Below are positions 2,381 through 21,691 of a stretch of 43,496 nt of DNA, in pieces; within the stretch, counting starts at the first letter, position 1, and every line of letters starts with the position of its first letter. The position numbers and the translations under genes are program-made. The stretch spans positions 1 to 43,496 of the forward strand of contig JAJZAI010000027.1 in the NCBI GenBank assembly GCA_021799495.1, given 5' to 3'. Origin of the DNA: Deltaproteobacteria bacterium (GTDB taxonomy: Bacteria > Desulfobacterota > Binatia > Binatales > Binataceae). The notes beneath the pieces were generated by a model. It was not told the DNA's origin. It ran no database searches and was given only the letters and a program-made list of their open reading frames with translations.

Positions 2381-2476
2381 GGAGGAGGAAGGGGCCCGGT
2401 GGCCCCACCGGTCTTCAAAACCGGCCTGGCGGCTAATACTGTCGCCGGAGGGTTCGACTCCCTCCCCCCTCCGCCA
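2381..2476 (+). tRNA. selC: tRNA-Sec (anticodon UCA)
   Basis: This 96-nt gene folds as a bacterial selenocysteine tRNA. It has an 8-bp acceptor (2381-2388 with 2465-2472, one A2386-C2467 mismatch) and a 6-bp D stem (GGGGCC/GGCCCC) with a 4-nt loop. The anticodon stem CCGGU/ACCGG carries loop CUUCAAA (UCA at 2415-2417). There is a long variable arm, a T arm with UUCGACU, a G discriminator and encoded CCA. The 8-bp acceptor, 6-bp D stem and UCA anticodon are diagnostic. The gene is the left attachment site of an integrated element: everything from the anticodon loop to the 3' end was supplied by the element and is identical to the displaced half at 10084-10148, so function should be preserved. 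Confidence 0.97.
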
Positions 2477-2477
2477 T
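2413..2477 (+). repeat. Left attachment repeat, 3' part of selC
   Basis: This 65-bp sequence is identical to 10084-10148. It begins with the first nucleotide of the tRNA anticodon loop and ends one base past CCA; the flanking bases differ. This is the usual footprint of tyrosine recombinases that cross over at the anticodon loop. Confidence 0.95.
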
Positions 2478-2570
2478 TAGCTAAGTGCCTGATATTGCGA
2501 GGTTTTCTTGCTTTTGGCTCGATTTACAGAAAGCCGGACCGGGCCGTAAAATTCGACCCAATCCGGCATC

Positions 2571-2589
2571 TTGCTAACGGATTGCTAAC
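2571..2589 (+). promoter_or_regulatory. Probable integrase arm-type site, left
   Basis: TTGCTAACGGATTGCTAAC consists of two copies of TTGCTAAC separated by GGA, an 11-bp period. The identical 19-mer occurs in the same orientation at 9946-9964, and a close inverted version at 9449-9467. The site lies 94 bp inside the left repeat, between it and the integrase gene, as expected for arm sites of a lambda-type integrase. Confidence 0.7.
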
Positions 2590-2601
2590 CTGACCGCGCG
2601 G

Positions 2602-3750: not shown

Positions 3751-3752
3751 GG

Positions 3753-4361: not shown

Positions 4362-4368
4362 CTTACGC

Positions 4369-4405
4369 CTTGTACAAATCTAACAATGATGTCTTGTACA
4401 GTCAA
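4369..4405 (-). promoter_or_regulatory. Integrase-operon promoter with twin TGTACA operators
   Basis: On the minus strand, -35 TTGACT (4405-4400) and -10 TAGATT (4382-4377) are separated by exactly 17 bases. The palindromic hexamer TGTACA, within CTTGTACA, occurs at 4369-4376 and again at 4393-4400, 24 bp apart. One copy sits at the transcription start and the other overlaps the -35. This suggests a repressor clamping the int promoter; the AlpA-like or CGNR protein are candidates. Confidence 0.6.
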
Positions 4406-4429
4406 GCAGCCGCGGCTAGGAAAAGACAT

Positions 4430-4627
4430 ATGAACGCACAGGCCATAACGAACGAACGGGTATGCTTGACGATCGAGGAAGCTCGCCGCTTGCTCGGCAT
4501 CGGCCGCTCGCAGGCGTATGCGGCGGCCCGCTCCGGCGAACTTCCGACGGTGCGGATCGGCAAGCGCCTGCTGGTCCCTCGCATCGCCCTCGAGCGGATG
4601 CTCGAGCGCGCCGGTGACGCGCGATGA
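4430..4627 (+). CDS. AlpA/excisionase-like helix-turn-helix protein
   Basis: The product of about 65 aa has a MerR-like winged HTH of the HTH_17/AlpA type: CLTIEEARRLLGIGRSQAY for the helix-turn-helix, then LPTVRIGKRLLVPRIALERML for the wing and last helix. Such proteins act as excisionases or as transcriptional activators of int and rep genes in P4-like elements and PICIs. The ATG at 4430 has AGGAAAAG upstream; an upstream in-frame TTG at 4370 lies inside the operator and is unlikely. It is divergent from the int operon, and its stop overlaps the next start (ATGA). Confidence 0.88.
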   Translation: MNAQAITNERVCLTIEEARRLLGIGRSQAYAAARSGELPTVRIGKRLLVPRIALERMLERAGDAR

Positions 4628-6291: not shown

Positions 6292-6794
6292 TGGACCCGG
6301 CCCTCGAAACGATCATCAACTCATTGGGCGGGCGGGGTATCCGCCTCTACCCGGCGGGCGACAAGCTCGCGGTCGAACCGGCGGATCGGCTGACCGACCA
6401 GGACCGCGTTTTGCTCCGCAAGCACCGCGATAGCCTGCTCGCGCTGCTCAGCGCGCCGGAGAACCGCGAGCCTGCCACCGCGCCCGCGATCGGCGAGTCG
6501 ATCCCGCCCTTGCCGATCGACCTCAGCAGGATCGCCGACGCCATCGCGCGCAATCCGCGTAGCCCGTTTCTCAACGATTTGGCGCTCGTAGTTTTCGTCC
6601 GGGGCGCCATCGGCGCCGCCCGCGCCATCGCCGATTTGCCCGAGGCCGCCCGGCCCGCAGCGCGGCTTCGCTGTCTCGGGCTGCAGCATAGGATCGTCGC
6701 CGCCATCACCGGCGCCGATTACGCGGCCGCCTACGCGCTGGCCGACGCCCTGATCAGGCTGCCGGACGAGCTGGCGGAGCTGGCGCCACAGTGA
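6291..6794 (+). CDS. Unknown protein with N-terminal TubC_N-like docking domain
   Basis: This 167-aa protein has residues 1-55 resembling the TubC N-terminal docking domain: L-x2-I-I-N-x-L-x2-R-G-I-x-L, then GDKLAVEP, then LTDQDRVLLRKHRDSLLALL. That fold was defined at termini of NRPS/PKS subunits, where it mediates protein-protein contact, but TubC_N-related proteins also occur in phages and plasmids. The remaining 110 residues are alpha-helical and Ala-rich, and I do not recognise them. The ATG at 6291 shares its A with the upstream TGA. A partner-binding role is inferred; the downstream protein at 7106 carries a similar module at its C-terminus. Confidence 0.75.
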   Translation: MDPALETIINSLGGRGIRLYPAGDKLAVEPADRLTDQDRVLLRKHRDSLLALLSAPENREPATAPAIGESIPPLPIDLSRIADAIARNPRSPFLNDLALVVFVRGAIGAARAIADLPEAARPAARLRCLGLQHRIVAAITGADYAAAYALADALIRLPDELAELAPQ

Positions 6795-6802
6795 GGTTAA
6801 TC

Positions 6803-7090
6803 ATGACTGACCAACAACTTTCCCAGCTTGTTGACCTGCTTTTCGAGATTCGTCACTGCCGTAAAGTTTTTCTGCTTGGCGACTTCGACATCGGCCGATG
6901 GGATCGCTTCGCCGACAGCGTGCGGTCCGATTTCCGCGCGCATCGCGACGATCCGGCCGCGATTCTGCCGGCCCTGATTCAGCGCGCGCGCAGTTTTCGC
7001 GCCGAACTTCAGATCGAGCGCGCGCGTATGCTGCGGGCGCTCAAGGTTCCGGGTTCGGATACCGCATATCAGTTGGACGAAACGCAATAG
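6803..7090 (+). CDS. Small unknown protein of the element
   Basis: The product is 95 aa, starting MTDQQLSQLVDLLFEIRHC, and is predicted mainly helical with a mixed charged C-terminus. I do not recognise the family. The ATG at 6803 is preceded by GTGAGG at a good distance, and the gene starts 8 bases after the upstream stop. The same GTGAGGTT leader recurs before the next gene, so both belong to one translationally organised operon. Confidence 0.65.
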   Translation: MTDQQLSQLVDLLFEIRHCRKVFLLGDFDIGRWDRFADSVRSDFRAHRDDPAAILPALIQRARSFRAELQIERARMLRALKVPGSDTAYQLDETQ

Positions 7091-7105
7091 CAAGTGAGGT
7101 TTCCC

Positions 7106-7783
7106 GTGGACTCAAGCATTACGAATTTGACGAAATTGACGAAAACGACGGCCGCCGAACAGCCCGCCCCGGCTTCGCTCCAAGAGCTGCGAGAGCGCGC
7201 ACACGCGGCGCTACTTCGCGCGCGGGCCGCCGATTCGCGGTTCTTCGAGGGCGAGCAAGAGCGCTTTTATGGAGACGTGAACGACGTTCAGCGTCATTGC
7301 GAGCCGGCGTTTTTGAGCGCGTGCCTGGCCGACTGGATTCGTCGGTTCGAGGCGCTGGCCACGCGCCCGAGCGAGCGCCCTTCGCCATATATAGGTTGGC
7401 GCGAGGCGGCTTTCACTCTCGAACGTCAAGATACATTTCTAGCGAAAATGAGCCGTCCGCAAGTCGAGCATTACCGCGCGCTACGCGAGAATCGCCACGA
7501 CCGCGAGGCCGGCGCGTTTTTGCGCGATTGCGAGGCCGGCCAGCACCTTCTGCCGCCGGGGTTCAACCTCAACCCGTCACCGCCCAATCCGCTCCCCGAC
7601 GCGATCAACTTGGTATTGCGCTTGCGGCAACGCGGATATGCTCTTGGCATCGACGGCGATTCGATTACCGTTTGCCCGGCTACGCTTTCCACTTCGGAGC
7701 GCGGAGAGCTGCAACGGCTGGGCGTTTACGTCCGCGAAGTGCTCACTTCGTCGGTCACGAAAGTTAAAATCGAGGTGAGATAG
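7106..7783 (+). CDS. Unknown protein with C-terminal TubC_N-like segment
   Basis: The 225-aa protein has three parts. The N-terminus holds a short repeat (NLTKLTKTT) encoded by 9-bp DNA repeats. A helical, charged middle with many Arg, Glu and aromatic residues follows (about 20-150). The C-terminal segment, about 165-215 (INLVLRLRQRGYALGIDGD, then ITVCPATLSTSERGELQRL), aligns with the TubC_N-like N-terminus of the protein encoded at 6291. Shared residues include R-G, x-G-D, V-x-P-A, L-[ST] and a final hydrophobic helix. The GTG at 7106 is chosen because GTGAGG precedes it as in the previous gene; an in-frame GTG at 7094 is the alternative. Function unknown. Confidence 0.7.
   Translation: MDSSITNLTKLTKTTAAEQPAPASLQELRERAHAALLRARAADSRFFEGEQERFYGDVNDVQRHCEPAFLSACLADWIRRFEALATRPSERPSPYIGWREAAFTLERQDTFLAKMSRPQVEHYRALRENRHDREAGAFLRDCEAGQHLLPPGFNLNPSPPNPLPDAINLVLRLRQRGYALGIDGDSITVCPATLSTSERGELQRLGVYVREVLTSSVTKVKIEVR
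7118..7150 (+). repeat. Nine-base phased tandem repeat
   Basis: ATTACGAAT is followed by two perfect TTGACGAAA units and a partial ACGACGG, in frame near the start of the 7106 gene and encoding LTKLTKT. A related inverted segment (TTCGTCGGTCACGAA) lies at the 3' end of the same gene near 7747-7761. Confidence 0.55.
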
Positions 7784-7788
7784 TCAAT

Positions 7789-7977
7789 ATGCAAAACCTA
7801 ATCGCCCGTGATTATGTTGCCGCGCTGATCGATGCGGCCCGCACGCAGCAGCCCGCGCCTGAGCTTCCGCCCGCCCGCGACTTGTCGGCCACAGAGATTC
7901 GCGCCGCGTTGGATAGCTATCGCGCCGAGCTACAGCGCCGCCGTCCGCGCTCCGGCCGCACGCTTTTCGGGCTGTGA
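7789..7977 (+). CDS. Small unknown protein of the element
   Basis: The product is 62 aa: a helical N-terminus (MQNLIARDYVAALIDAA), a proline-rich linker (QQPAPELPPA), then a helix ending in a strongly basic RRRPRSGR. No family is recognised. The ATG at 7789 is preceded by GAGGTGAG. The gene starts 5 bases after the upstream stop, and its own stop overlaps a possible GTG start of the next gene (GTGA), which supports it as part of the operon. Confidence 0.6.
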   Translation: MQNLIARDYVAALIDAARTQQPAPELPPARDLSATEIRAALDSYRAELQRRRPRSGRTLFGL

Positions 7978-8186
7978 CCATGCTTCCAAGTGTTGTCATA
8001 TTTGTGGGCACACTGGCGGCCATCGGCATCGCTTTCCGGGCCGGGGTTGCCGTGGGATACCAGCGCGCGCGCATGCGCAATGATTTCACCTTGGCGCATC
8101 TGACCGAGCTGGCGGAACAGTTGCTCCAGGCCAACGATTTTTTGCGCGGTGAACAGGATCAGCCCGATGTCTTCCGACTCCAGTGA
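7974..8186 (+). CDS. Small single-span membrane protein
   Basis: The product is about 70 aa with one N-terminal transmembrane segment (LPSVVIFVGTLAAIGIAF, continuing AGVAVGY), then a basic RARMR, and a cytoplasmic helical tail (LAHLTELAEQLLQANDFLRG). This N-out or signal-anchor layout is common in small phage and island proteins, including holin-like or membrane-anchored accessory proteins, but no specific family is evident. The GTG at 7974 overlaps the upstream stop; an ATG at 7980 is equally plausible. The next gene starts inside it at 8167. Confidence 0.6.
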   Translation: MTMLPSVVIFVGTLAAIGIAFRAGVAVGYQRARMRNDFTLAHLTELAEQLLQANDFLRGEQDQPDVFRLQ

Positions 8187-8607
8187 CTTGACCGCCGTGG
8201 TGCCTCGCCACCCGCGCAAGCGCCGCGATGAGCGGCTCCGCCGCCTCGCGCGTGCGATCCGGCACAACAATCCACACCTTGCGGGCGAGCCGGGAAACGG
8301 CCCTCTCGTTGGCCGCCTGTCGCGACTGTATCTACTGGGAGAGATCGCCTTCGAGCGCGCGCGCGCCGCCGCAGCGGGCGATGACGTTGCCACGTTCCTT
8401 GCCGCCACCGAATCCTATCGGCGACTCTCGGATTCTAGCAACCGGCTGGAACAACGCCTCGGCATCGGCTCGCGCACGAGCCAGCCCATAGACCTTGCGG
8501 CCGAACTGGCCCGCGCGATCAGTGGCCGCCGCAGGGCGGAGATTGCTTTCGCGCCCGCAGCTTCCGCCGACAACCCCGACAAGCCCGGCGATATCGAGCC
8601 TCATTAG
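8167..8607 (+). CDS. Unknown basic helical protein, last gene of the element operon
   Basis: The 146-aa protein has an Arg-rich N-terminus (VPRHPRKRRDERLRRLARAI). A conserved-looking central helical region follows (LSRLYLLGEIAFERARAAAAGDD, then ESYRRLSDSSNRLEQRLGIG), then an Ala-rich tail. The compact basic helical make-up would fit a DNA-binding protein, and the LEQRLGI segment faintly recalls small terminase subunits, but this is too weak to call. The ATG at 8167 has AGGA nine bases upstream and overlaps the upstream gene by 20 bases. It is convergent with the secreted-protein gene, 18 bases away. Confidence 0.6.
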   Translation: MSSDSSDLTAVVPRHPRKRRDERLRRLARAIRHNNPHLAGEPGNGPLVGRLSRLYLLGEIAFERARAAAAGDDVATFLAATESYRRLSDSSNRLEQRLGIGSRTSQPIDLAAELARAISGRRRAEIAFAPAASADNPDKPGDIEPH

Positions 8608-8625
8608 CGCCCAAAAGCCCGAATT

Positions 8626-8934
8626 TCACTGCGCCACGCCAATCGAGAAATCCGACGGCTTCGGATATTGGAACTTCCCCGTTTCGACCTGCCGCTCGGC
8701 CTGCCGCCGGTACTTCGGCTTGACCACGCCGTCCAACACGTGTTCGCAGATGATCCGATGCCTGTAAAACACGATGACCAAACTCGCGCCATCGGGCGTC
8801 ATAAATTTAGCGGCGACCTCTCCGTATTTGCGATTCTGCGCGGTCAAATAGCCGGCGCAATCGGGATACTGCGCCGCATTAGCGCCGCCAAAGGCCGCCA
8901 GCACGACCGCCACCGCGATTGCGATTCGCTTCAC
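8626..8934 (-). CDS. Small secreted protein, element cargo
   Basis: The 102-aa product has a clear Sec signal peptide (MKRIAIAVAVVLAAFGGANA, likely cleaved after ANAA). The mature domain of about 80 aa has two cysteines (DCAGY and RIICEHV) that could form one disulfide, and many Lys, Arg and Tyr. The translation starts at a GTG with AGGG seven bases upstream. I do not recognise the family. It is transcribed against the replication operon and sits towards the right end of the element, where accessory genes usually lie, so it is probably a cargo gene. Confidence 0.65.
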   Translation of the reverse strand: MKRIAIAVAVVLAAFGGANAAQYPDCAGYLTAQNRKYGEVAAKFMTPDGASLVIVFYRHRIICEHVLDGVVKPKYRRQAERQVETGKFQYPKPSDFSIGVAQ

Positions 8935-9008
8935 CTGTTGACCCTATCACTACCACGCCGCCCGCCCCAAGCGCCGCAACCAGATACCGCCCGCCCCCCA
9001 GGGCGATA

Positions 9009-9029
9009 AAAGCGGCCGTTTAGGCCGCC
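9009..9029 (-). terminator. Possible intrinsic terminator on the minus strand
   Basis: GCGGCC at 9013-9018 pairs with GGCCGC at 9024-9029 across a 5-nt loop. On the minus strand it is followed by TTTTAT. It would separate leftward transcription from the 9625-9900 gene from that of the secreted-protein gene. Confidence 0.4.
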
Positions 9030-9285
9030 GCCACAACCGCCACGCGTTGACCCTAGGGCCTTTAATTCCTGCTTGCGCCGCCGATGCCAGCCGCCGCCGC
9101 GTGCGAGCGCAGCCGATTTTCAATATCCCCCCCTATGGCATGGCCAGGGCAGCCTAGCGGCCCGGCGAAGTCAGAGCGGCGATGCCCTACGCAGCGCTAC
9201 GGTCGCGACCAGGGCAGGGGAAGCGAGCACGGGCCGAAGAGAGCCCGCGCCGCCTACGTCGGATTTAACAGCTTTTCCCCGATCG

Positions 9286-9312
9286 GCGTCTCCAGCGTCT
9301 CCGGCGTCTCCG
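9286..9312 (+). repeat. Triple 9-bp tandem repeat GCGTCTCCR
   Basis: Three consecutive 9-mers, GCGTCTCCA, GCGTCTCCG and GCGTCTCCG, are followed by a potential stem GGGCTG (9312-9317) with CAGCCC (9345-9350). That stem encloses a second hairpin, GCATC-GGCT-GATGC (9331-9344). The 9-bp phase matches the repeat at 7118-7150. Confidence 0.6.
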
Positions 9313-9448
9313 GGCTGCCAAGCAAGCCAAGCATCGGCTGATGCCAGCCCGCGCCGCAGATCGCCAATCGAGCGCGAGCGCGTTTTCGTACCTCGCCGAA
9401 CGTACTCACAGAAGGCGCATACCGGTGCGCCGGAAGAGCAACTGTGCG

Positions 9449-9467
9449 GTTAGCAACTGGTTAGCAG
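9449..9467 (-). promoter_or_regulatory. Probable integrase arm-type site, inverted copy
   Basis: Read on the minus strand, CTGCTAAC-CAG-TTGCTAAC has the same octamer pair and 3-bp spacer as the sites at 2571 and 9946, in opposite orientation. One position of the first octamer differs. Confidence 0.6.
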
Positions 9468-9624
9468 CCGCCGAATAGCGCCCGTATTTGCTAGGGTTTT
9501 TCGGGCATACCGGTTTGGTGGTGCGGTATCTCACTGCTATCGCATCGCAACGGCCAGTGTTCGTCCGGCGCGGCTCGCCGGCTCGACAATTTCCGATCGA
9601 CGGGCAAGGGCAACGAAAGCCCCG

Positions 9625-9900
9625 TCACTGCGGCTGCTTCCAAGTGCTAATATTGTTTTGTGTCATTATGGCCAGCTCTTGCAGCCGCTTGAGCTCGGTC
9701 AAAATCTGGTCCAGAGCGTCGGCATCAGTTGCCTTATCCATCTCCGCAATCTCATAGGGATGGGATTCGTTTAGTTTGTCCATAAACGCCTGATCCACAT
9801 GCCCGACCGTCTTAAGCGCTATTTGGAAATAGAGTTTGCGCAACACTCCTAGTTCTTTCCGAATCGCGCTCAGGATAGCCGCGCTTCTTTGATCGCTCAT
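9625..9900 (-). CDS. Unknown helical protein near the right end of the element
   Basis: The product is 91 aa, almost entirely helical and charged (SDQRSAAILSAIRKELGVL, later DALDQILTELKRLQELAIM), with no signal peptide or cysteines. Its base composition is less GC-rich than its neighbours, and its codon use looks natural. The ATG at 9900 has GAGG nine bases upstream. I do not recognise the family. Its place between the last operon gene and the right attachment site is where satellites and islands often carry accessory genes such as phage-defence or fitness factors; no function can be assigned. Confidence 0.6.
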   Translation of the reverse strand: MSDQRSAAILSAIRKELGVLRKLYFQIALKTVGHVDQAFMDKLNESHPYEIAEMDKATDADALDQILTELKRLQELAIMTQNNISTWKQPQ

Positions 9901-9945
9901 TGCGACAGCCTCGAGGGCCGGTTGCCCAAGGCGAGGCTAGTATAT

Positions 9946-9964
9946 TTGCTAACGGATTGCTAAC
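9946..9964 (+). promoter_or_regulatory. Probable integrase arm-type site, right
   Basis: The 19-mer TTGCTAACGGATTGCTAAC is identical and co-oriented with 2571-2589. It lies about 120 bp inside the right attachment repeat. The rest of 9901-10237 shows no gene. Confidence 0.7.
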
Positions 9965-10083
9965 ACACTACGAGACACGAGCCGGTTTTCGGCATCACGT
10001 GCGAGCATGGCAGAAGGCGGAAAGTCCAACAAACAAGCAGGTTTCGACACTGGCGAGCATAAGCCGGCATGGTAAGCAGCGCA

Positions 10084-10148
10084 CTTCAAAACCGGCCTGG
10101 CGGCTAATACTGTCGCCGGAGGGTTCGACTCCCTCCCCCCTCCGCCAT
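10084..10148 (+). repeat. Right attachment repeat, orphan 3' half of selC
   Basis: This is a perfect copy of 2413-2477 (anticodon loop to CCA plus one base). It lacks the acceptor 5' strand, D arm and promoter, so it is not a functional tRNA. It marks the original 3' end of selC displaced by the insertion. Confidence 0.95.
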
Positions 10149-10237: not shown

Positions 10238-13200
10238 TCATCCCGTCTTTTCAGGAACCGCGGCTGTTTCCCGATAAACCAGGTAGTAAATCAACGGCAC
10301 GACCACGAGCGTGAATGCGGTCGATGCAAAGATACCAAAGATGAACGACCACGCGAGGCCCGAAAAAATCGGATCGAGCGTGATCACGGCCGAGCCAAGC
10401 ATCGCGGCGCCGGCGGTCAGCGCAATCGGCCGCAGGCGGGTCGCGCCCGCGGACAGAATTGCTTCTTCGAGCGGGTGGCTGGCGGCAAGTTCGCGATGGA
10501 TGAAATCGATCAGGATGATTGAATTGCGCACGACGATGCCGGCCAGGGCGATCATGCCGATCATCGCCGTCGCCGTGAAGTAGACCGGGTCGGCGTAGCC
10601 GCCGATCGTTCGGCTCGTAATCAGATCAAGCAGGAAAAAGCCCGGCATGATGCCGATCATGGTCAATGGAATCGCCGCCATGATAATCAGCGGCATCGCC
10701 AGCGATTCGGTCTGCGCCACCAGAAGAACGTAAATAAAAAAGAGCGCCGCGCCGAACGCGATTCCGAGGTCGCGAAAAACCGTGACCGTGATGTTCCATT
10801 CGCCTTCGCCCGTCCAGACAATCTGGTAATTGTGCGGAACGAGATGCTTGGTGCGACTTTCGAGCCACAGAATCTCGTTGACCGGGCTGATGCCGGCGGT
10901 GTCCGCCGTGACCATCGCGACCTCGCGCAAGTCTTTTCGGTAAATCGGCTGTTCGGCGACGGTTCGGCGGAATTCGCCGATCTCGCCGATCGGTATCAAG
11001 GAGCCGTCGGAGGCGCGCACGCGTACGGCCGCGAGCGCGGCAAGATGCGAACGGTCCGCCAACGGCATCCGCAGCTCAATCATCAGTGGATTGCGCTCCG
11101 TTTGTGAGTGGATGGTCGCCGCGGGATCGCCGCCGACCATCATGGCGAGCGTCTTCGCGACATCGGCCGTCGTCACGCCGTGCATCGCGGCCTTTTCCCG
11201 ATCGATCGCGTATTGAAGGCGCGGCTGGGCGGCGATCGAAAAATCGTCGCTATCGACGATTCCATCCGTATGATCGAAAACCCGGCGCAATTCCTTGCCG
11301 TATTCAATAAGCTGGCCGTATTCGGCTGCGGGCGGACCGTAAATTTCGGCCACCACCGTTTCCAGCACGGGCGGTCCCGGCGGCATCTCGACAATCTTCA
11401 GCTTCGCCCCGTCCCGTTTGGCGATCGCTTCAACCAGCGGCCGAATCCGGAGCGCGATTTCATGCGATGATTGCTCGCGCTTCGCTTTCGGCGCGAGATT
11501 GATTCGGATGTCAGCCTGATACGGCTCGCGGCGCATGTAGTAATGCCGCACCATTCCGTTGAAATCGAACGGCGACGCCGTCCCGACATAGGTTTCGAAG
11601 CTGGTCACTTCTGGAATGCGGCTGAGCAGCAGGCCAAAATCGCGCGCGGCCGCGTCGGTCGTTTCCAGAGGCGCGCCTTCCGGCATATCGATAACCAGTT
11701 GCAGCTCGTTCTTGTTGTCGAACGGCAGCATCTTGACCGGTACGAGTCCGAACACGACCAGCAATACCGATCCGATTAGCGCGCCGACCATTCCGACCAG
11801 AAAAATGCGCGCGCGGCGGGGGCTGTCGAGTAGCGGCTTGAGAATTCGCGTATACCAGCGCCGGATCGCGGCGGTTTCGTCTTCAGCCTCCGCCGCCGAG
11901 TCTGTGTCGTGATTGCGCCGCAGGAGATGGTACGCCGCCCATGGCGTGATCGTGAACGCCACGATCAGCGACATGAGCATCGCGAGCGGCACGTTGAACG
12001 GCATCGGCCGCATATACGGTCCCATCATGCCGGTCACGAACAGCATCGGGATGAACGATGCGATTACAGTGAAAGTTGCGAGAATCGTCGGCGGGCGGAC
12101 TTCGTCAACGGCCGTCAAGGTGGCCTCGCGCGGCGGCAGTTTGCCGAGGCGGAAATGACGATGGATATTCTCGACGTCGACGATCGGATCGTCCACCAGC
12201 AGGCCGAGCGAAAGAATCAGCGCGAAGAGCGTGACGCGATTGATCGTGTATCCGGCGAGCAGATTTCCGACGAGCGTGATGGCGAGCGTGACCGGCACCG
12301 CGATCGCGACGATCAACGCTTCGCGCAGGCCGAGCGAAAACGCCAGCAGCACGACGATAATCGCGACGGCGATTAATAGCTCGCGCACCAGTTCATTTAC
12401 TTTTTCGTTGGCGGTTTCACCGTAGTTGCGCGTTATGAGCGCATGCATGTCCGATGGAATCGCGATGCCTTCGAGCGCCTGCACTTTTCCGATCAGCTCC
12501 TCCGCCACCGCAACGGCGTTCGATCCCCGCCGTTTGGCGAATGCTATCGTCACGGCCGGATAGAAGCGTCCGCGCGAGCCGATCGCGGCGTTGCGTATCT
12601 GTCCCGGTTCGGCCGGAATCAGATCGCGCGCCGGACCGAAGCCGACACTGGTGTAAGCGACCGGCTCCGCCGGACCGTCGATGACGCGGGCGACATCCCT
12701 CAGGTACACCGGATGGCCGTCGCGAACGGCGACCACCAGGTTTGCGACCTCGCCGGCGTTCCTCAGGAAGGGGCCGCTGTCGAGCAGTATTTCGCGATCC
12801 GCGCTGGCGAACGAGCCCGCTCGCAAATTGGCGTCGGCGCCGCGCAGCGCCTGCGCCACTTCAAGCGGCGCCAGACCATGGCCGGCGAGCCGGCCGGCGT
12901 CGAGCAGCACGCGCACTTGCCGGGGCCGTCCGCCGACGACAAACGAGCGCCCGGTGTCCGGAGCCTGCTGCATCAGATGCAGAATTTCGTCGGCGACGCG
13001 CCGCAACGCCGCATCGCTTTCGCGTTCGCTCCAGAGCGTGACCGTCAGAATTGGCACGTCGTCGATCGAGACTGGCTTGACGATCCATCCGGTGACGCCG
13101 GGAGGCACGGCGTCGCGATTGGATGCGAGCTTGTTGTAAATTTGAACGAGGCTTTTGGTCTGGTCGTATCCGACCTGGAAGCGCACCGTCACCATCGCCA

Positions 13201-13549
13201 TTCCCGGCCTGGAGACGGAATAGATATGCTTGACGCCCTCCATTTCCCACAGGCGCTTTTCCAGATTGATGGTGACCAGATTTTCAACTTCGGCGGCGCT
13301 GGCGCCGGGCATCGAGACAATGATGTCCGCGAGCGGCACGGAGATTTGCGGATCCTCCTCGCGGGGCGTGACCATCAGCGCGGTCAGGCCGGCGGCGAGC
13401 GACGCCGCCAACAGCAGCATCGAGAGATTCGATCCCAAAAAGAGATCGACGATTCGCGCGGTGAAACCCAGTTTGTGATGCGATTCGCCGTTCATATCAC
13501 GATTGCCGCGCGGCGGATTGGCATTCAACCAGCCGCGACGGGACGACAT
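10238..13549 (-). CDS. RND efflux transporter, inner-membrane permease subunit
   Basis: The 1103-aa protein is of normal length for AcrB/HAE1-like RND pumps. TM1 is at about residues 38-60, followed by a large periplasmic loop. The TM4 proton-relay motif LGLLVDDPIVDVEN carries the paired aspartates of AcrB. A second periplasmic loop and the C-terminal TM bundle (TM8 to TM12) follow. It exports small hydrophobic compounds by proton antiport with the membrane-fusion and TolC-like partners encoded just upstream. The DD motif and lack of an HME-type metal signature favour organic substrates. The start ATG is 2 bases after the fusion-protein stop with no strong ribosome site, suggesting coupling. 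It is the last gene of the operon. Confidence 0.95.
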   Translation of the reverse strand: MSSRRGWLNANPPRGNRDMNGESHHKLGFTARIVDLFLGSNLSMLLLAASLAAGLTALMVTPREEDPQISVPLADIIVSMPGASAAEVENLVTINLEKRLWEMEGVKHIYSVSRPGMAMVTVRFQVGYDQTKSLVQIYNKLASNRDAVPPGVTGWIVKPVSIDDVPILTVTLWSERESDAALRRVADEILHLMQQAPDTGRSFVVGGRPRQVRVLLDAGRLAGHGLAPLEVAQALRGADANLRAGSFASADREILLDSGPFLRNAGEVANLVVAVRDGHPVYLRDVARVIDGPAEPVAYTSVGFGPARDLIPAEPGQIRNAAIGSRGRFYPAVTIAFAKRRGSNAVAVAEELIGKVQALEGIAIPSDMHALITRNYGETANEKVNELVRELLIAVAIIVVLLAFSLGLREALIVAIAVPVTLAITLVGNLLAGYTINRVTLFALILSLGLLVDDPIVDVENIHRHFRLGKLPPREATLTAVDEVRPPTILATFTVIASFIPMLFVTGMMGPYMRPMPFNVPLAMLMSLIVAFTITPWAAYHLLRRNHDTDSAAEAEDETAAIRRWYTRILKPLLDSPRRARIFLVGMVGALIGSVLLVVFGLVPVKMLPFDNKNELQLVIDMPEGAPLETTDAAARDFGLLLSRIPEVTSFETYVGTASPFDFNGMVRHYYMRREPYQADIRINLAPKAKREQSSHEIALRIRPLVEAIAKRDGAKLKIVEMPPGPPVLETVVAEIYGPPAAEYGQLIEYGKELRRVFDHTDGIVDSDDFSIAAQPRLQYAIDREKAAMHGVTTADVAKTLAMMVGGDPAATIHSQTERNPLMIELRMPLADRSHLAALAAVRVRASDGSLIPIGEIGEFRRTVAEQPIYRKDLREVAMVTADTAGISPVNEILWLESRTKHLVPHNYQIVWTGEGEWNITVTVFRDLGIAFGAALFFIYVLLVAQTESLAMPLIIMAAIPLTMIGIMPGFFLLDLITSRTIGGYADPVYFTATAMIGMIALAGIVVRNSIILIDFIHRELAASHPLEEAILSAGATRLRPIALTAGAAMLGSAVITLDPIFSGLAWSFIFGIFASTAFTLVVVPLIYYLVYRETAAVPEKTG

Positions 13550-13551
13550 TT

Positions 13552-14676
13552 CTAATTCGTCTGCGCAGCTCCCGTTTGCCCCGCGATTGTCCGCACGCGA
13601 GTTTGAGTGAGCAGTACTTTTTCTCCGGGTTTAACGCCCGCAAGGATTTCAATCCGATCGCCGAAGCGTCTGCCGATCGAAACCATCCGCACGACGGTCG
13701 CGCCGCGATCGTAAACGCGAAGCGACGTAAGTTGCCCGACCCGGACCACCGCGCCAGCCGGCACGGTCACAACCGTCTCCGTCCCGGACGTGAACGTCGC
13801 GCGCGCGAACATCCCCGGCCGCAGATTGGCGGCGGAGGGCAAAACGGCGCGCACGAGAAAGGTGCGGCTGCGCGGATCCGCGGCGGGCACGATCTCGTTC
13901 ACGCTGAGTTCAAAGCTCGCGCCCGCGGCGTCGATCGAAACGGCGAGCGGCTGGCCGATGCGAATCCGCCGGGCCAACGCTTCAGGGACTTCCAATTCCA
14001 CGCGCATCGCGGATTCGCTGTAGAGCCGCACCAGCGGCTGACCCGGCATCGCAAGGTCGCCCCGCTCGACCATCCGTTCGATTACGACGCCGCCGGCCGG
14101 AGACTGGACCGTCGCGTACGCCAGCGCCGCGCGCGCTTGCGCGACGGCGGCGCGCGCCTGCTCGGCGCGGCCGGCGGCGGCGCGATATGCGGCTTCCGCC
14201 GCGTCGCGCTCGCTCGCCGTCACCGAGCCGCGAGGATAGAGCGCGGCGTAGCGGGACTCATCGGCGCGCGCGCGCGATAATTCGCCGTTCGCGGCGGTCA
14301 ATTCGCCTTCGGCCTGCGCCAGTCCGGCGCGCAAATCAGCGGAATCGAGCGTGACCAGCGTCTGGCCGGCGCGCACCCGTTCGCCGGCATGAACCTCGAC
14401 CGCGACGACTCGCGCCGCAACCCGGCTGGCGGCGGCCACCGGAAATCGCGATTGAACCGATCCGATTACTTCGTGGCGAATCGGCACGGTTTCGCGAAGC
14501 GCTTCGCCCAGCGGCGCTTCCGGCGTCGCCTCGGCGCCGGAAGCGGCCAGGCCCGGCGCGATTCGGCCGCTCTCCAACCAGCGCGCGCCCAGCCACAGGA
14601 TTGCGAGTCCGGCCAACACAGCAGCGGCGATCCGGCCGCGCGACAGCCCGGCCATGCGATTCGATTCCAGCGCCAT
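13552..14676 (-). CDS. RND efflux membrane-fusion (periplasmic adaptor) protein
   Basis: The 374-aa protein has an N-terminal membrane anchor (about 15-30, IAAVLAGLAILWLGARW). The lipoyl/barrel-sandwich half motif (RVAARVVAVEVHAGERVRAGQTL) is followed by an Ala/Arg-rich alpha-helical hairpin (about 110-190). The second lipoyl half is GGVVIERMVERGDLAMPGQP, followed by a beta-barrel and a membrane-proximal domain (VPAGAVVRVGQLTSLRVYD). It bridges the RND pump and the outer-membrane channel. The ATG directly abuts the TGA of the TolC-like gene (TGAATG), and the pump gene starts 2 bases after its own stop, so the three are one operon. Confidence 0.94.
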   Translation of the reverse strand: MALESNRMAGLSRGRIAAAVLAGLAILWLGARWLESGRIAPGLAASGAEATPEAPLGEALRETVPIRHEVIGSVQSRFPVAAASRVAARVVAVEVHAGERVRAGQTLVTLDSADLRAGLAQAEGELTAANGELSRARADESRYAALYPRGSVTASERDAAEAAYRAAAGRAEQARAAVAQARAALAYATVQSPAGGVVIERMVERGDLAMPGQPLVRLYSESAMRVELEVPEALARRIRIGQPLAVSIDAAGASFELSVNEIVPAADPRSRTFLVRAVLPSAANLRPGMFARATFTSGTETVVTVPAGAVVRVGQLTSLRVYDRGATVVRMVSIGRRFGDRIEILAGVKPGEKVLLTQTRVRTIAGQTGAAQTN

Positions 14677-16038
14677 TCAGGGTTCCTTCAGTTCGTAAGG
14701 ATCGGATCCCGCGGCGAGGTTGACGGCGGCGCGATCGACGGCCACGTTGATTTCCGAACCGGCCAGCCGCATGTCGGCCTGCTCGCGCGCCGTTTCGGCG
14801 TCCAGCACGGCGACGTTCGGCGCCAGTCCGGCGCCGTAGCGGTCGTCCAGGATGCGCAAGGCGTCGCGCGCGTAACCGACGTCGCGCCGCGCCACGACAA
14901 GGCCTTCCCGCGCCGCCTCGAGCCTTCGCCACGCGGTCGAGACCTGCAGGCGCACCGCCTCGTCAAGGTCGCGCGCCAGAACTTCGATCCGATCGAGCCG
15001 CGCCGCCGCCGCGTCCACCCGCGCCCGCGACGCCAATCCATTGAACAAATTGAGCCGCGCATTGACGAATACTCCGGCGTTGTTGCCCGCGCGCATCAGC
15101 GCCTTCGAGTCGTTCTCGTAAACGCTGGCCACAGTTATGGTCGGCATGTAGTCGGCGCGCGCGATCGTGATCTGCTGGCGCGCCTCCGCGATTCGCGTGC
15201 GGGCCGCATGCAGCTCGGGCCGCGCCGCGACGGCGCGCGCCATCAGCGCGTCGAGCGGCTCCGCGGCGCCGGCCGCCGCGGCAAGCTCGGGCGGATTTTC
15301 GAGCGGCGCGAAGCCCTGATCCTCGGCGCCAAGGACGTGGCCGAATTCGTCGCGCGCGATCGCCACTCCGCTTGCCGCCTCGATACGCTGCTGGTCGAGC
15401 GCGCCCACCGCGACTTCCGCCCGCAGCACGTCGGAATTTACCGCAAGTCCGTGATGATACCGGTCCTGCGCGACCGCCAGATGGGCGCGTGCGGCGGCCA
15501 GCGCGCGGTCCACCACGGCCACGCGCCGCTCAGCCAGTACGGCGGCGTAATAGGCGCGGATCGCGTCGAACTCGACCCGCTGCCGCGCCTCGGTTTCCTG
15601 CCAGCGCGCAGCCTCCGCGTTCAATCCGGCCGCCCGCCACGCCGCCAGCAGCCGTCCGCCCGCGAAAACCGGAAACGACAGCGTCACGTCGCTTTGAAAA
15701 TTCGAGAAGAACCCCGGATGGTTCAGCGAATTGAGCGCGAAATCGCTCGCGGCGAAATCCTGCTGCAGCAGCAGATCCGAAAAAACCTGCACCGGATTGT
15801 CGGTCGCCGAATAGTTCTCGCCCGCGTCCAGATGCGGAATCATCGCGCCCCGCGCGACGTCGGTCTCGGCCTCCGCCGCCGCGCGATCGAAACGCGCCGC
15901 CGCCAGCCCGCGATTCCGCCTGAGCGCGATCGTTATCGCCTGCCCAAGCGGGATGCGGCGCGGCGCCGCGCCGCACGCCGCGCCCGCCGTCAACGCGAGC
16001 GCCGCCGCCAGCACAACCGTCCCGATCCGCAGCCTCAT
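14677..16038 (-). CDS. TolC-family outer-membrane efflux channel
   Basis: The product of about 453 aa begins with a signal peptide (MRLRIGTVVLAAALALTAGA). Two OEP repeats follow, each with long helices rich in Ala, Arg and Glu (for example LAAARFDRAAAEAETDVARG, LDRIEVLARDLDEAVRLQ). It forms the trimeric outer-membrane duct of the pump. The ATG at 16038 has GAGGAA seven bases upstream and is followed directly by the signal sequence; a longer frame to 16194 has no such features. The gene starts 12 bases after the DUF2892 stop and ends abutting the adaptor gene. Confidence 0.93.
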   Translation of the reverse strand: MRLRIGTVVLAAALALTAGAACGAAPRRIPLGQAITIALRRNRGLAAARFDRAAAEAETDVARGAMIPHLDAGENYSATDNPVQVFSDLLLQQDFAASDFALNSLNHPGFFSNFQSDVTLSFPVFAGGRLLAAWRAAGLNAEAARWQETEARQRVEFDAIRAYYAAVLAERRVAVVDRALAAARAHLAVAQDRYHHGLAVNSDVLRAEVAVGALDQQRIEAASGVAIARDEFGHVLGAEDQGFAPLENPPELAAAAGAAEPLDALMARAVAARPELHAARTRIAEARQQITIARADYMPTITVASVYENDSKALMRAGNNAGVFVNARLNLFNGLASRARVDAAAARLDRIEVLARDLDEAVRLQVSTAWRRLEAAREGLVVARRDVGYARDALRILDDRYGAGLAPNVAVLDAETAREQADMRLAGSEINVAVDRAAVNLAAGSDPYELKEP

Positions 16039-16049
16039 CGCCGCGTTCC

Positions 16050-16283
16050 TCACGAATTCGCGCTTACGGTTCCCGCCGCACCCGCTCCGCCCGCCGGCCT
16101 GGTCACGCCGAGCTTGCGCAGGATGTCCTCCATCAGGCACCAGCGCGTCAGCGCCGATTGGAACAGGTTCGCGCCGACGAACAGCGTGAACCACAGCCAG
16201 TAGCGGCTCTGGAAGTAGCTCAGCGCGACGCTCAGCATGATAAACGTTCCCGCGATTAACCGAATCATTCGTTCCGACGACAT
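16050..16283 (-). CDS. DUF2892 (YgaP-type) small membrane protein
   Basis: The product is about 77 aa. It has the DUF2892 layout: MSSERMIRLIAGTFIMLSVA, then YWLWFTLFVGANLFQSALTRWCLM, then ILRKLGV, forming two membrane helices with the typical G-x-N-L-F-Q-S and W-C-P/L-M features. In YgaP this domain anchors a rhodanese; here it is stand-alone, while a rhodanese occurs in the divergent regulator. The ATG at 16283 has GGAGGAAAA upstream. It is the first gene of the efflux operon, so its expression probably follows the divergent promoter region. Confidence 0.88.
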   Translation of the reverse strand: MSSERMIRLIAGTFIMLSVALSYFQSRYWLWFTLFVGANLFQSALTRWCLMEDILRKLGVTRPAGGAGAAGTVSANS

Positions 16284-16431: not shown

Positions 16432-17115
16432 ATGTCAAACGAAAATCCCTCCATCGCGATGTTCGCCCAGTTCGCCGCCGTCGCCCGCGCCCTCGGCCAT
16501 CCCCATCGGCTCGCCCTGATGCAACTGATGGCGCAGGGCGAAGGCGCCGTCGAAACCCTGGCCGAGCGCGCCGGCCTCACCGTCGCCAACGCCTCCCAGC
16601 ACCTGCAGCGCCTGCGCCGCGCGGGATTGGCCGCCGCGCGCAAGGACGGCCAGCGCGTCTATTACCGCCTCGCCGGCGATTCCGTGCTCAGCCTGCTCGC
16701 AGATCTCCGCCGCGTCGCGGAACGCAATCTGGCCGAGGCGCGCCAGCTCATTCAGGCCTACTTCGAGCGGCGCGACAGCCTGGAGCCGGTCACGCGGCGC
16801 GAGCTGAAGCGGCTGATGCGTCTCGGCTGCGTGACTGTGCTCGACGTCCGTTCGCCTGCGGAATTTTCCGGCGGCCATCTGCCCGGCGCGATCAACGTTC
16901 CCGTGCGCGAACTCGAAAGGCGGCTCAGGGCGCTCCCGCCGTCGCAACGCGTCGTCGCCTACTGCCGGGGGCCGTATTGCGTTTTCTCGTATGAAGCGGT
17001 CGCCCTGTTGCGCAAGCACGGTTACGACGCGCGCCGGCTCGAGGACGGTTTCCCTGAATGGCGCGCGGCGCGTATGCCGGTCGAAGCGGACGGCGATACG
17101 GCGCGGAAACGATGA
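16432..17115 (+). CDS. ArsR-family regulator fused to a rhodanese domain
   Basis: This 227-aa protein has an N-terminal winged HTH (residues 10-100, with recognition region LTVANASQHLQRLRRAGL). A C-terminal single rhodanese domain follows (about 125-220), with VLDVRSPAEFSGGHLPGAIN and the active-site loop YCRGPYC. Such fusions couple sulfur-transfer or persulfide chemistry to transcription. The ArsR part has no cysteine, so it lacks the dithiol sensor of SqrR/BigR; sensing would have to use the rhodanese cysteines. It is divergent from the DUF2892-efflux operon, with a palindrome between them, and is the likely regulator. The OsmC gene follows 95 bases downstream. Confidence 0.93.
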   Translation: MSNENPSIAMFAQFAAVARALGHPHRLALMQLMAQGEGAVETLAERAGLTVANASQHLQRLRRAGLAAARKDGQRVYYRLAGDSVLSLLADLRRVAERNLAEARQLIQAYFERRDSLEPVTRRELKRLMRLGCVTVLDVRSPAEFSGGHLPGAINVPVRELERRLRALPPSQRVVAYCRGPYCVFSYEAVALLRKHGYDARRLEDGFPEWRAARMPVEADGDTARKR

Positions 17116-17664: not shown

Positions 17665-19989
17665 CTAGCGCATCCGCCGCAGCGCCGGAACCTTGACGAA
17701 ATCCAGGGCGGCCAAAAAGAGGACGCAAATCCCGAGCGCCGTTCCGACCACCGCCGCCGGCAGCGGCGCCATCAGCACGCCTTTTACCGCCATCGCGCAG
17801 ATCACCGCGATATCGGCCGCCGACGCGAGCAGCATCCAGCCGCTTGGCCGCGATTTCCAGAAATGGCCGCGCTCGCGCACCAGATAGACCATCCCCTGTC
17901 CGGTGAACACCAGTACGATGAAATCCAGCGTCTGCAATTGCGGCGTCGCCATCCCCATCGCGTCGCGTCCGTAGAAATAAAGGAACAGCGACAGCGCCAG
18001 CACGCCCGCGCCCATCGTGAATCCCGCCGCCATCAGTTCGGCGATACGCCAGCGGTCGGGCGTGCGCGAGAACGAAACATTGTCGGTCGCGATCGACATC
18101 GTCACGAAGTCGTTGGCGAACAGCAGCAGCACGATCAACAGCGGCGTGACCACGAACGATCGCGTCAGCATCACGCCCAGGCTCAGAAACAGGCCGATCT
18201 GTACCGTCTTGATAATTTTGTTGAGCGTGTAGGTCAGCATCCGCTGGTAGATGCGTCGGCTGGTCTCGACCGCGGCGAGCATGTCGGTCAGGCCCGGATT
18301 GGTCAGCACCAGGCTGGCGGAGGCCTTGGCGACGTCGGTGGCGCTCGCCACCGCGATTCCGACTTCCGCCTGGCGCAGGGCGGGCGCGTCATTGACCCCG
18401 TCGCCCGTCATCCCGGCCACGGCGCCGGCGCTTTGCAGCGAACGGATCAGGTTGAACTTGTCTTCCGGAAAGACGCCCGCAAGCACCGCGCAATTCATCG
18501 CGATCGACGGGTCGCGGCGAATTTCGCCAGCGTCGCAGACGCGACCTTCGATGCCGATTTCGTGCGCGACGGCGCGCGCGGTCACGAGGCCGTCTCCCGT
18601 CACCATCGTCACCCGCACGCCTAGTTCGTTGAGGCTGCGAATCAGGTCGCGCGAATCCGGCCGCGGCGGATCCTGCAGCGCCAGCAAGCCCGCCACGCGC
18701 ATCGCGCCCGCCGCTCCGGCGGCGACCGCCAGCACCCGGCAGCCGCCGGCCGCCAGCCGCTCGACGTCGGCGTCGAATCCGTCCGGAGCTTCGGCGCGCG
18801 CCGCGACCGCCTGCGGCGCGCCTTTGACCGCCTCGATGGGTTTTCCATTTTCGTCGATCGTCGCCGCCGCCGTTTTGGTCGCGGGATCGAAAGGGACAAA
18901 TGCCGTGCGGCGGACTCCGGCGGCCGCGGCGCCGGCGCGCTCCAGAATCGCGAGATCGATCGGATCCTGCGTGGCGGCGTCGCTGGTCAGCGCCGCGTAC
19001 CTCTGAAGCTCGTTTTCGCTGAATGGCGCGTATGCTTGCGACGCCGCCAGCGCGAGCCGGTTCTGCGTCAGCGTGCCGGTCTTGTCGGTGCACAACACGT
19101 CCATCGCCGCCGCCTCCTCGATCGCCGCGAGCCGCGTCGCCAGCACGCCGCGGCCAGCCAGCTCGATCGCGCCGAGCGTCGTCGCCAGCGTGAACGTCGC
19201 CGGCAGGGCGACCGGCACCGACGCCACCATCAGGATCAGCACGAACGGCAGCGCGTCGCTCATCGGCAGGCCGGCGATTATCGCGAACGCCAGCACCGCC
19301 GCGGCCAGCGCCCCGTCCATCGCGACCAGCGCCTTCACGATGCTGAAAATGACGGTCTGCAGATGGCTCGGCGCGCGCGCGGCGCCGACCAGTTCGGCGG
19401 TCTTGCCGAAATAGGTGCCGGCGCCCGTCGCGGTTACTTCGCCGCTCGCCTCGCCGCGCTTGATCAAGGCGCCGGCGTAGGCGGTCTTGCCGGGTCCGGC
19501 CTCGACCGGCAGCGATTCGCCGGTCAGCATCGACTGGTCGATAAGCAGCGTTCCGTCGGCCAGCGCGATATCGGCGGGCGCGATATCGCCCATCCGCAAA
19601 TAGACGAAATCGCCCGGCACGAGTTCTTCGGCGGAGACCTGTCCCCAGCGCCCGTCGCGCATCACGCGGGCGTTGATCTGAAGCCGCTGGCGCAGCATTT
19701 CGAGCGCGCCGCGCGCGCGGCCCTCCTGCCTCAGGCTGAGTATCGCGTTGAAGACCAGCAGCGCGCCGATCACGGCCGCCTCGACCGGCTTGCCGAGCGC
19801 GAGTTCCAGCGCGACCGTCGCTTCGAGCATCCACGGCACCGGCGCCCAGAATTTCGCGAGTATCGCCAGCAGCGGATTGGTCTTCTGTTCGGCGACGGCG
19901 TTCGGACCGAAGCGTGCGAGCCGCGCCCGCGCCTCCGCGCCGCTCAGCCCCCGCCGTTCTGTCATCTCTATGGGTTGATTCAATTCCAT
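17665..19989 (-). CDS. P-type plasma-membrane H+-ATPase (type IIIA)
   Basis: The 774-aa protein has a cation-ATPase N-terminal segment (residues 1-60), TM1-2 and an actuator domain with LTGES at 155-159. The M4 motif PVALPATF is near 259-266. The phosphorylation motif DKTGTLTQN has D302, followed by an N domain, TGDGVNDAPAL and four to six C-terminal helices. The length, the PVALP motif and the missing heavy-metal domains fit the fungal/plant-type proton pump family (TIGR01647). It would energise the inner membrane or export protons under acid stress. No C-terminal autoinhibitory extension is seen. It is monocistronic, convergent with the OsmC gene and divergent from a methyltransferase. Confidence 0.93.
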   Translation of the reverse strand: MELNQPIEMTERRGLSGAEARARLARFGPNAVAEQKTNPLLAILAKFWAPVPWMLEATVALELALGKPVEAAVIGALLVFNAILSLRQEGRARGALEMLRQRLQINARVMRDGRWGQVSAEELVPGDFVYLRMGDIAPADIALADGTLLIDQSMLTGESLPVEAGPGKTAYAGALIKRGEASGEVTATGAGTYFGKTAELVGAARAPSHLQTVIFSIVKALVAMDGALAAAVLAFAIIAGLPMSDALPFVLILMVASVPVALPATFTLATTLGAIELAGRGVLATRLAAIEEAAAMDVLCTDKTGTLTQNRLALAASQAYAPFSENELQRYAALTSDAATQDPIDLAILERAGAAAAGVRRTAFVPFDPATKTAAATIDENGKPIEAVKGAPQAVAARAEAPDGFDADVERLAAGGCRVLAVAAGAAGAMRVAGLLALQDPPRPDSRDLIRSLNELGVRVTMVTGDGLVTARAVAHEIGIEGRVCDAGEIRRDPSIAMNCAVLAGVFPEDKFNLIRSLQSAGAVAGMTGDGVNDAPALRQAEVGIAVASATDVAKASASLVLTNPGLTDMLAAVETSRRIYQRMLTYTLNKIIKTVQIGLFLSLGVMLTRSFVVTPLLIVLLLFANDFVTMSIATDNVSFSRTPDRWRIAELMAAGFTMGAGVLALSLFLYFYGRDAMGMATPQLQTLDFIVLVFTGQGMVYLVRERGHFWKSRPSGWMLLASAADIAVICAMAVKGVLMAPLPAAVVGTALGICVLFLAALDFVKVPALRRMR

Positions 19990-20144
19990 TCGTCTTCTCG
20001 TCTACACTCTTTGCGCAGCGGCACGCAGGCCTGCTTCCGTAATTCAGATCGTTGTCGCAACAAACGGAGCGCCCAATTTGGCCCGAATATCCGCTTCCAG
20101 CGAACTTTCAGCGGTCGTAGAATAGGTTTTGTTGAGGAGTCTTG

Positions 20145-20858
20145 ATGAATCAATCGGAACCAAGGTCCGCGGCGTCAGGCGCGGCTTCAGTCTCAATCGC
20201 GTCAAAAACAGAAACACAATCCCGGATTCAGATGAATCCGTCGCCGGTGCGCACTGTTTCTCTCGGTCAAGATCGCGGGCTGACCTGGATTGAGAGAGTG
20301 ATATCCTGGCTGTCCAACCGGCAGATTCGCGCCGCGGTAAAAACGTTTGCCGGCTTGTCCGTGGCCGATATTGGCTGCGGATACAATGCCGAATTTGCTC
20401 GGTCGGTTATTGGGCAGGCGAAATCCATTACCATAACCGATTTGTCGATCGCTCCGGAATTGAAATCCGCGCCGTCGGTTCGCGTAATTGAAGGCCGGTT
20501 GCCTGGAAGTCTCGTATCGATCGATGACGCTTCGGTCGACGTCGTAATATGCAATTCGGTGATTGAGCATCTTGATCAACCTCTCGAAACATTGTCCGAA
20601 CTGTATAGAATCTGCGCCTTTGGCGGAGTGGTTCTGATCAACGTGCCGTCATGGTTCGGTAAAACAGTGTTGGAATTGATGGCGTATCGCCTGAAAATGG
20701 GCCCAATCAACGAAGTTGAAGATCACAAAATGTATTTCGATCCGCGGGATCTTTGGCCGTTATTGATACGATCCGGATTCCGCCCCGGAGAAATCCGCGC
20801 CTTCAGGCATAAATTTCTATGCTGCACTTTCGCGATTTGTCGAAAGCGGGCGGCTTGA
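20145..20858 (+). CDS. Class I SAM-dependent methyltransferase
   Basis: This 237-aa protein has a Rossmann-type methyltransferase core of the type 11 group. Motif I is VADIGCGYNAEFARSV (about 80-95), followed by ITDLSIAP for motif II and VDVVICNSVIEHLDQP for motif IV and its HL pair. The N-terminal 50 residues are Ser/Ala/Thr-rich and not conserved-looking. The C-terminus ends with CCTFAICRKRAA. The substrate is unknown; small-molecule, lipid or polysaccharide methylation are all possible. The ATG at 20145 follows GAGGAG. The gene is clearly less GC-rich than its neighbours, suggesting recent acquisition. The 185 bases after it show no gene. Confidence 0.88.
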   Translation: MNQSEPRSAASGAASVSIASKTETQSRIQMNPSPVRTVSLGQDRGLTWIERVISWLSNRQIRAAVKTFAGLSVADIGCGYNAEFARSVIGQAKSITITDLSIAPELKSAPSVRVIEGRLPGSLVSIDDASVDVVICNSVIEHLDQPLETLSELYRICAFGGVVLINVPSWFGKTVLELMAYRLKMGPINEVEDHKMYFDPRDLWPLLIRSGFRPGEIRAFRHKFLCCTFAICRKRAA

Positions 20859-21043
20859 GCACGCCAACTTTATATTCGTGGCCGAGCCGATCTTGCTTCC
20901 GGAAACAATCGAGCTTCGTCCGCAAAGTGATGATTTCCGATATGAAGAAATCCAAGCAGGGACTCGTATCCAATTGTGAGGCCTTTTGACCCAGCGCTGC
21001 CACATCATGATGGTCTTTGCGCAGGCGAACTTTACAGTCCACG

Positions 21044-21622
21044 TTACTTAGTACGATCCAGCGCTTTGCGGACCGGATGGTCGGAAGGCAGCGCGCAGAG
21101 GCCGTCGCTGTCGATTTTGAGCGCGCAATTGAAGCGCGCGCGAAAATTCTCCAGCGCGATCGCCGCCGTCAGTTCGACGATCTGCTCCGTGGTGAACAGC
21201 GCGCGCGCTTCCGCGAACGTCTCTTCGCTCACGTCGCTCGGCGTGCGCGTCATCCCTTCGGCCAGCCGCAGCACCGCCTTCTCACTCCGATCAAAATGAG
21301 GGCTGCGCTCGAATGACGCAAGGTCATCGAACTGCTCGCTTCTGATTCCCGCTTCGCCGCCCACGGCGGCGTTGATATCCACTCAGAAGGGACATCCGAT
21401 CATCTGCGCCGCGCGCAACGACGCCATTGTCTTCAAGCGGCCTTCGACGACGCCGGACGCTGCGATCGCCGGGCCAAGATTGGCCACGGCCAGCATGATT
21501 TCCGGCCGATGCGCCATCACGAGATTCGGCGTGATCACTCGCCCGAAACGCCTGATGCTCCCGTCGAAGATCAGTTTCAGGTTGGCTGGCGCCGTTTCCG
21601 GATCGATCCCCTTGATGCGCAT
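21044..21622 (-). CDS. CxxU selenoprotein, carboxymuconolactone decarboxylase/AhpD family
   Basis: Read through one in-frame TGA (21385-21383), this gene gives a single 192-aa protein of the CMD/AhpD-like alkylhydroperoxidase family. The N-terminal part ends MASLRAAQMIGCPF. The next codon is TGA, followed without frame change by VDINAAVGGEAG, EKAVLRLAEGMT and AIALENFRARFN, all family features. The TGA sits exactly where the second Cys of the redox CxxC motif belongs (C77-P-F-U80). A 7-bp hairpin with GUG loop starts 11 nt after it, and selC is in the same window. The ATG at 21622 follows GGGAG. The likely role is thiol/selenol peroxide reduction. A nonsense mutation is the alternative, but the intact downstream frame argues against it. 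Confidence 0.88.
21355..21371 (-). promoter_or_regulatory. Candidate bacterial SECIS hairpin
   Basis: On the minus strand CGCCGCC (21371-21365) pairs perfectly with GGCGGCG (21361-21355) around a GUG triloop. The loop begins 19 nt after the UGA, which is within the range usual for bacterial SECIS elements, and the first loop base is G as expected. Hairpins are common in GC-rich DNA, so this is supportive rather than decisive. Confidence 0.55.
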
Positions 21623-21691
21623 GTTCGGCGTTCTCCCGGCAATAAATTTTTTATCGCGTAATTGCGGCAGGCAATCCGGAGGGAGCCTGAC

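Follow-up and report, generated by a model that had tools for sequence, protein, structure and literature searches.

A gene for a protein of the CMD/AhpD fold lies on the reverse strand of the window (the whole stretch of 43,496 nucleotides that was analysed) at 21622..21044 and comprises 192 codons and a TAA stop, with one in-frame TGA. As read from the sequence, it begins with an ATG at 21622-21620 and ends with the TAA at 21046-21044, and GGGAGAA, which may be a ribosome-binding site, lies 5' of the ATG (21631..21637, reverse strand). The TGA (21385-21383), read as selenocysteine (Sec), would specify residue 80 counted from the ATG and occupies position 2 of a CxxC motif, position 1 being the TGT codon of Cys77 (21394-21392). 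An earlier note on this DNA had taken two adjacent frames to be a single frame split by one TGA, falling exactly on the second position of the motif. The sequence and the alignment of homologues described below agree with this; the frame is unshifted across the TGA, with GCPF-U-VDIN as the read-through motif, and there is no other stop within the 192 codons. Openness of the frame is nevertheless weak evidence in DNA so rich in G+C, as at most two in-frame stops were found in 5.4% of mononucleotide shuffles of the same letters. TGA ends nine of the 13 other ORFs in the window that have a family match and therefore has not been reassigned throughout. Comparison with the copy in genome G003 gave a dN/dS of 0.14 for the part beyond the TGA and 0.37 for the part preceding it, which takes in 23 codons 5' of the ATG, and these values indicate selection against protein change downstream of the TGA.

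The read-through protein matched 86 of 96 related genomes (E <= 0.001). An initial set of 39 rows was made up of 30 loci, the best matches with one per genome, and nine of 11 loci from named records found by a scan of GTDB contigs, the other two being copies of the G003 and G014 loci; in the aligned column TGA was present in 34 rows and TGC or TGT in five. With the addition of 20 more matches picked from the 86-genome list, which left weaker matches, with a TGA in some and none in others, outside the set, there were 59 rows, with TGA in 42 (from 30 genomes and six named records), TGC or TGT in 16 and GTC (Val) in one, L077, which is without either Cys of the motif. The earlier expectation that homologues carry either Cys or UGA here is thus borne out in 58 of the 59, and a sequencing error at the TGA, which the same note had raised, is very unlikely with the codon common to so many rows. 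None of the 59 rows had a further TGA within the part that was aligned. One TGA row (L082; G059:C24:33286-33903) also has three TAG codons in the matched frame, and may be either a decayed copy or a frame overrunning the end of the gene. In a 37-protein alignment (A2) Cys77, the Cys/Sec80 column and Gly92 were invariant, and the Asp two residues past the Sec/Cys was kept in 36/42 Sec rows and 10/16 Cys rows. A tree of 58 rows implies at least five exchanges between Sec and Cys, as is expected for real Sec/Cys pairs. Since an open frame says little here and the hairpin of the window taken alone is borderline, it is on the homologues that the case for Sec rests.

A SECIS-like hairpin with a 7-bp stem and a GUG loop (21355..21371, reverse strand) follows the TGA, much as the earlier note had drawn it: nucleotides 12-18 after the TGA pair with nucleotides 22-28 and the loop occupies nucleotides 19-21. 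Judged against a synonymous-codon control this hairpin is borderline (P = 0.058), and its folding energy is unexceptional (z = -0.11, P = 0.47). The stem test and the analysis of paired changes cover the first 39 rows. Among the 34 TGA rows the best stem had a 3-nt loop at nucleotide 19 in 24 and a 4-nt loop at nucleotide 19 in two; the loop was at nucleotide 21 in six, these being the rows from Acidobacteriota and Chloroflexota, and at nucleotide 18 in L031 and L035, with five and four pairs respectively. A position-specific stem test in which protein and codon use were held fixed gave P<0.05 for 20/34 TGA rows and 0/5 Cys rows. The loop begins with G in all 25 rows in register at nucleotide 19. 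Pair 15/25 is T-A in 24 of these 25 rows and C-G in the window, so that both sides have changed, while pair 13/27 is T-A in 13, G-C in seven, T-G in one and unpaired in four; pair 12/28 fails in six. Folding energy was tried as a discriminator and rejected (mean z -0.41 with 3/34 at P<0.05 for TGA rows; mean z -1.40 with 2/5 for Cys rows); the TGA rows stand out solely in the position-specific stem test and in their paired changes. Comparison of these sequences indicates that a hairpin with a small G-led loop is kept at the same place, with paired changes, in most TGA relatives.

The genome also encodes the machinery for Sec. All three genes that the earlier note had proposed looking for are present, selB at 360.2 bits (cut-off 242.25), selA at 567.1 bits (cut-off 267.9) and selD at 381.5 bits (cut-off 125); selD itself contains a single TGA, which coincides with the U of UAGK, and the accessible part of PMC13188914 lists UxxK as a motif of selenophosphate synthetase. 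The tRNA-Sec gene already recognised in the window, with anticodon TCA, is at 2381..2476 on the forward strand (Rfam RF01852, 72.2 bits). Across the homologues selA exceeded its cut-off in 28 of the 30 genomes with a TGA row vs one of eight Cys-only genomes (Fisher P 2.2e-5, in a test that ignores relatedness, four of the eight belonging to one family, f7). A genome was counted as Cys-only if it had only Cys rows among those fetched, and selA status was read by hand; the single Cys-only genome with selA was G045. Two TGA genomes, G015 and G073, had no detectable selA, yet their tRNA-Sec matches scored 74.2 and 81.4 bits, and no selB over the cut-off was found in G040 and G073. Four others (G042, G046, G060 and G093) gave only weak tRNA-Sec matches, with selA and selB present.

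The surroundings of the tRNA-Sec gene show signs of insertion. A 65-nt direct repeat, with identical copies at 2413-2477 and 10084-10148 that lie 7,671 bp apart, encloses a phage-type integrase (2602-4173) and a DUF3631 protein (4624-6291), and an integrative element (2413-10148) seems to be lodged in the tRNA-Sec gene. The corresponding site in G003 (L058) is uninterrupted, and the tRNA-Sec of the window is still complete despite the element. Two strong tRNA-Sec matches were seen 2.9 kb apart on contig C18 of G006 and 4.2 kb apart on contig C298 of G017, which perhaps reflect further insertion or duplication at tRNA-Sec. Elsewhere in the window an ArsR-type regulator fused to a rhodanese domain (16432-17115) adjoins the genes of a three-part RND efflux system (10238-16194).

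The distribution of the gene is patchy. Close copies occur in two of the seven genomes of the genus, G000 and G003. In G006 the larE and P-type ATPase flanks are syntenic and only a 3' piece is found between them (residues 162-183 of 192, 86% identity), so the gene has probably been deleted there. Searched at E <= 0.1 out to 1.5 kb from larE, G001, G002 and G004 showed no trace of it, and G005 (83% complete) gave two doubtful fragments (E 0.02 and 0.06). The copies in G044 and G089, from another family of the class, are 67-72% identical and group with the g1 and g9 copies, which suggests transfer or patchy loss. Neighbouring genes were compared for 29 loci with flanks reaching at most 1.5 or 5 kb, and less where a contig ended, a sample that leaves out L012, L041-L049 and later loci. 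The idea that the gene works together with its neighbours larE and cysK was dropped, as the block is preserved at the G003 locus (L039) alone; the other loci match only ORFs over the gene itself, with the exception of L021, which has one weak match (27% identity) to an HlyD-like gene at 13552. Between the gene and the P-type ATPase the window has about 1.1 kb (19957-21053) with a methyltransferase-like ORF (20142-20858), an interval of about 175 bp in G003.

The window protein matched the Pfam CMD family PF02627 at 30.8 bits (cut-off 23). The best NCBIfam family was NF053654 (GroundWater_YciW, 'YciW-related (seleno)protein'), matched over residues 25-198 of the 215 searched at 140.8 bits, which lies below the equivalog cut-off of 310. 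The same family was the top NCBIfam match for nine of ten relatives tested, and all ten were, like the window protein, far below 310 bits; the group is therefore related to NF053654 and is not that family. The peroxidase-related (AhpD-like) subfamily TIGR01926 scored 33.9 bits, below its cut-off of 81.8, and an acidobacterial TGA relative, L045, passes it at 100.8 bits. E. coli YciW has been linked to cysteine tolerance in the accessible part of PMC10821248, a function that is not carried over to the window protein here.

Selenoproteins with a CxxU motif were published in 2005, when AhpD-like (27 sequences, COG2128) and CMD (four sequences) groups were described in the accessible text of PMC1088965 and a 4-carboxymuconolactone-decarboxylase-like selenoprotein was predicted in Geobacter sulfurreducens, according to the part seen of PMC1242214. 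By 2008 there were 299 'AhpD-like 1' entries (PMC2398784, in the section consulted), and both the AhpD-like and the CMD groups stand in a 2026 table (PMC13188914, as excerpted). The excerpt of PMC12013277 makes no mention of AhpD or CMD, and in the literature searched one review, PMC9312934, available in part, brought 'selenoprotein' and 'YciW' together. This kind of CxxU selenoprotein is thus already published and the window gene is a new example of it. As far as the accessible portions of PMC1088965, PMC9312934 and PMC13188914 describe it, the AhpD-like selenoprotein (COG2128/TIGR01926) resembles the window protein in having Sec at position 2 of the CxxC, the same kind of domain and a bacterial SECIS whose small loop contains G; the window protein differs in lying below the TIGR01926 cut-off. 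The CMD selenoprotein (PF02627) is alike in domain and CxxU, and its entry in the text seen of PMC1088965 rests on domain and motif.

The structure was predicted with high scores (pLDDT 93.7, pTM 0.89) and has helices at 61-75 and 78-91. Cys77 and Sec80 are at the start of helix 78-91, and in the model the CxxU thus opens the second of the paired helices, as the AhpD-type criterion asks. Among solved structures the debrominase Bmp8 (6OHI) ranked first in the sequence-profile search (E 3.5e-32) and again in the fold comparison (Z 21.3 over 183 residues, at 20% identity), where several AhpD-like chains came within about 1 Z of it. The two-helix CxxC fold is common also to the AhpD-like peroxidase PA0269 (2O4D; Z 18.9) and to M. 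tuberculosis AhpD (1GU9; Z 11.3). In the accessible text of PMC3141380 the AhpD relay comprises Glu118, Cys130, His132, Cys133 and His137, both positions of the CxxC being involved, and both relay Cys and the His are invariant across the AhpD-like structures compared. PA0269 and M. tuberculosis AhpD have the relay Glu and His, whereas in the window protein Thr stands where the Glu would be, 12 residues ahead of the first Cys, and Asn where the His would be, four past the second. Relay Glu and His occur together in 9/42 Sec rows and 0/16 Cys rows, and the loss of the relay is therefore not tied to Sec. Its absence weakens a peroxidase reading, and with it the peroxide handling put forward in the earlier note. 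The same note had called the Sec a replacement for the resolving cysteine. Sec in a CMD/AhpD protein is supported, but the label 'resolving' was an assumption and should be dropped, since either residue may attack the substrate: C82, the residue mutated in Bmp8, aligns with Cys77 and not with Sec80, and the AhpD relay draws on both positions.

Other explanations of the TGA were weighed against these observations. A TGA in the middle of a frame is the usual sign of decay, and the gene is dispensable in the genus, being absent near larE in three genomes and reduced to a remnant in G006; a pseudogene or an assembly error, with homologues that share the TGA by chance, is nevertheless highly improbable, because the codon recurs across 30 genomes and six named records, the stretch beyond it is conserved as protein and the frame holds no other stop. 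Much the same must be said of translation that ends at the TGA, with an incidental hairpin and a separate downstream protein made from an internal start. An ORF with a GTG directly 3' of the TGA does exist (21044..21382) and the borderline hairpin of the window would suit such a reading. The CxxC pair and the fold, however, span the TGA, 16 homologues have an unbroken frame with Cys at that site, and many TGA relatives carry a non-start codon immediately 3' of the TGA (e.g. GTA, GTC, ATC, AAG, CAG or CTC), although others carry GTG or ATG, so that an internal start is scarcely credible.

A different alternative accepts the Sec protein and would make it a Bmp8-like reductive dehalogenase with deiodinase-like chemistry instead of a general thiol oxidoreductase. 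Bmp8 is a reductive debrominase of halopyrroles that uses Cys, and its chemistry has been compared with that of the selenoenzyme deiodinase; it leads the solved structures by both profile and fold. The lead by fold is narrow, with several AhpD-like chains close behind, and the low identity and the alignment of C82 with Cys77 also stand against a Bmp8-like activity, which appears quite unlikely. Bmp8 differs from the window protein too in having Cys in place of Sec and other residues past the motif. Also unlikely, though worth stating, is that the proteins form a separate Sec clade on the AhpD fold in which the Glu/His relay was given up for an acidic selenol, possibly to catalyse something other than peroxide reduction, for instance the reductive dehalogenation of small aromatics, a kind of reaction that Bmp8 carries out with Cys.

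The locus is almost certainly best explained as one intact gene of the CMD/AhpD fold in which SelB and tRNA-Sec would decode the UGA at 21385-21383 as Sec, guided by the hairpin just 3' of it. The frame, the Sec/Cys column, the paired changes in the hairpin and the Sec machinery are all seen in the sequences, and we infer that selenium is actually inserted and that Cys77 and Sec80 would cycle between a reduced form and a selenenyl-sulfide. Our reading is that the product would act as a selenol/thiol oxidoreductase, the likely reaction being reduction of a peroxide, a disulfide or a similar small substrate. With the Glu and His of AhpD replaced by Thr and Asn, the naturally acidic selenol may spare the protein the need for a relay.

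The gene is a clean and well-supported case of one that plain reading of stop codons would split in two. It adds to the published group of CxxU selenoproteins a clade whose scores fall short of the cut-offs set for its matching NCBIfam families. The repeated exchange of Sec and Cys, the gene remnant in a relative and the missing relay make the gene useful for testing why selenium is retained at this position.
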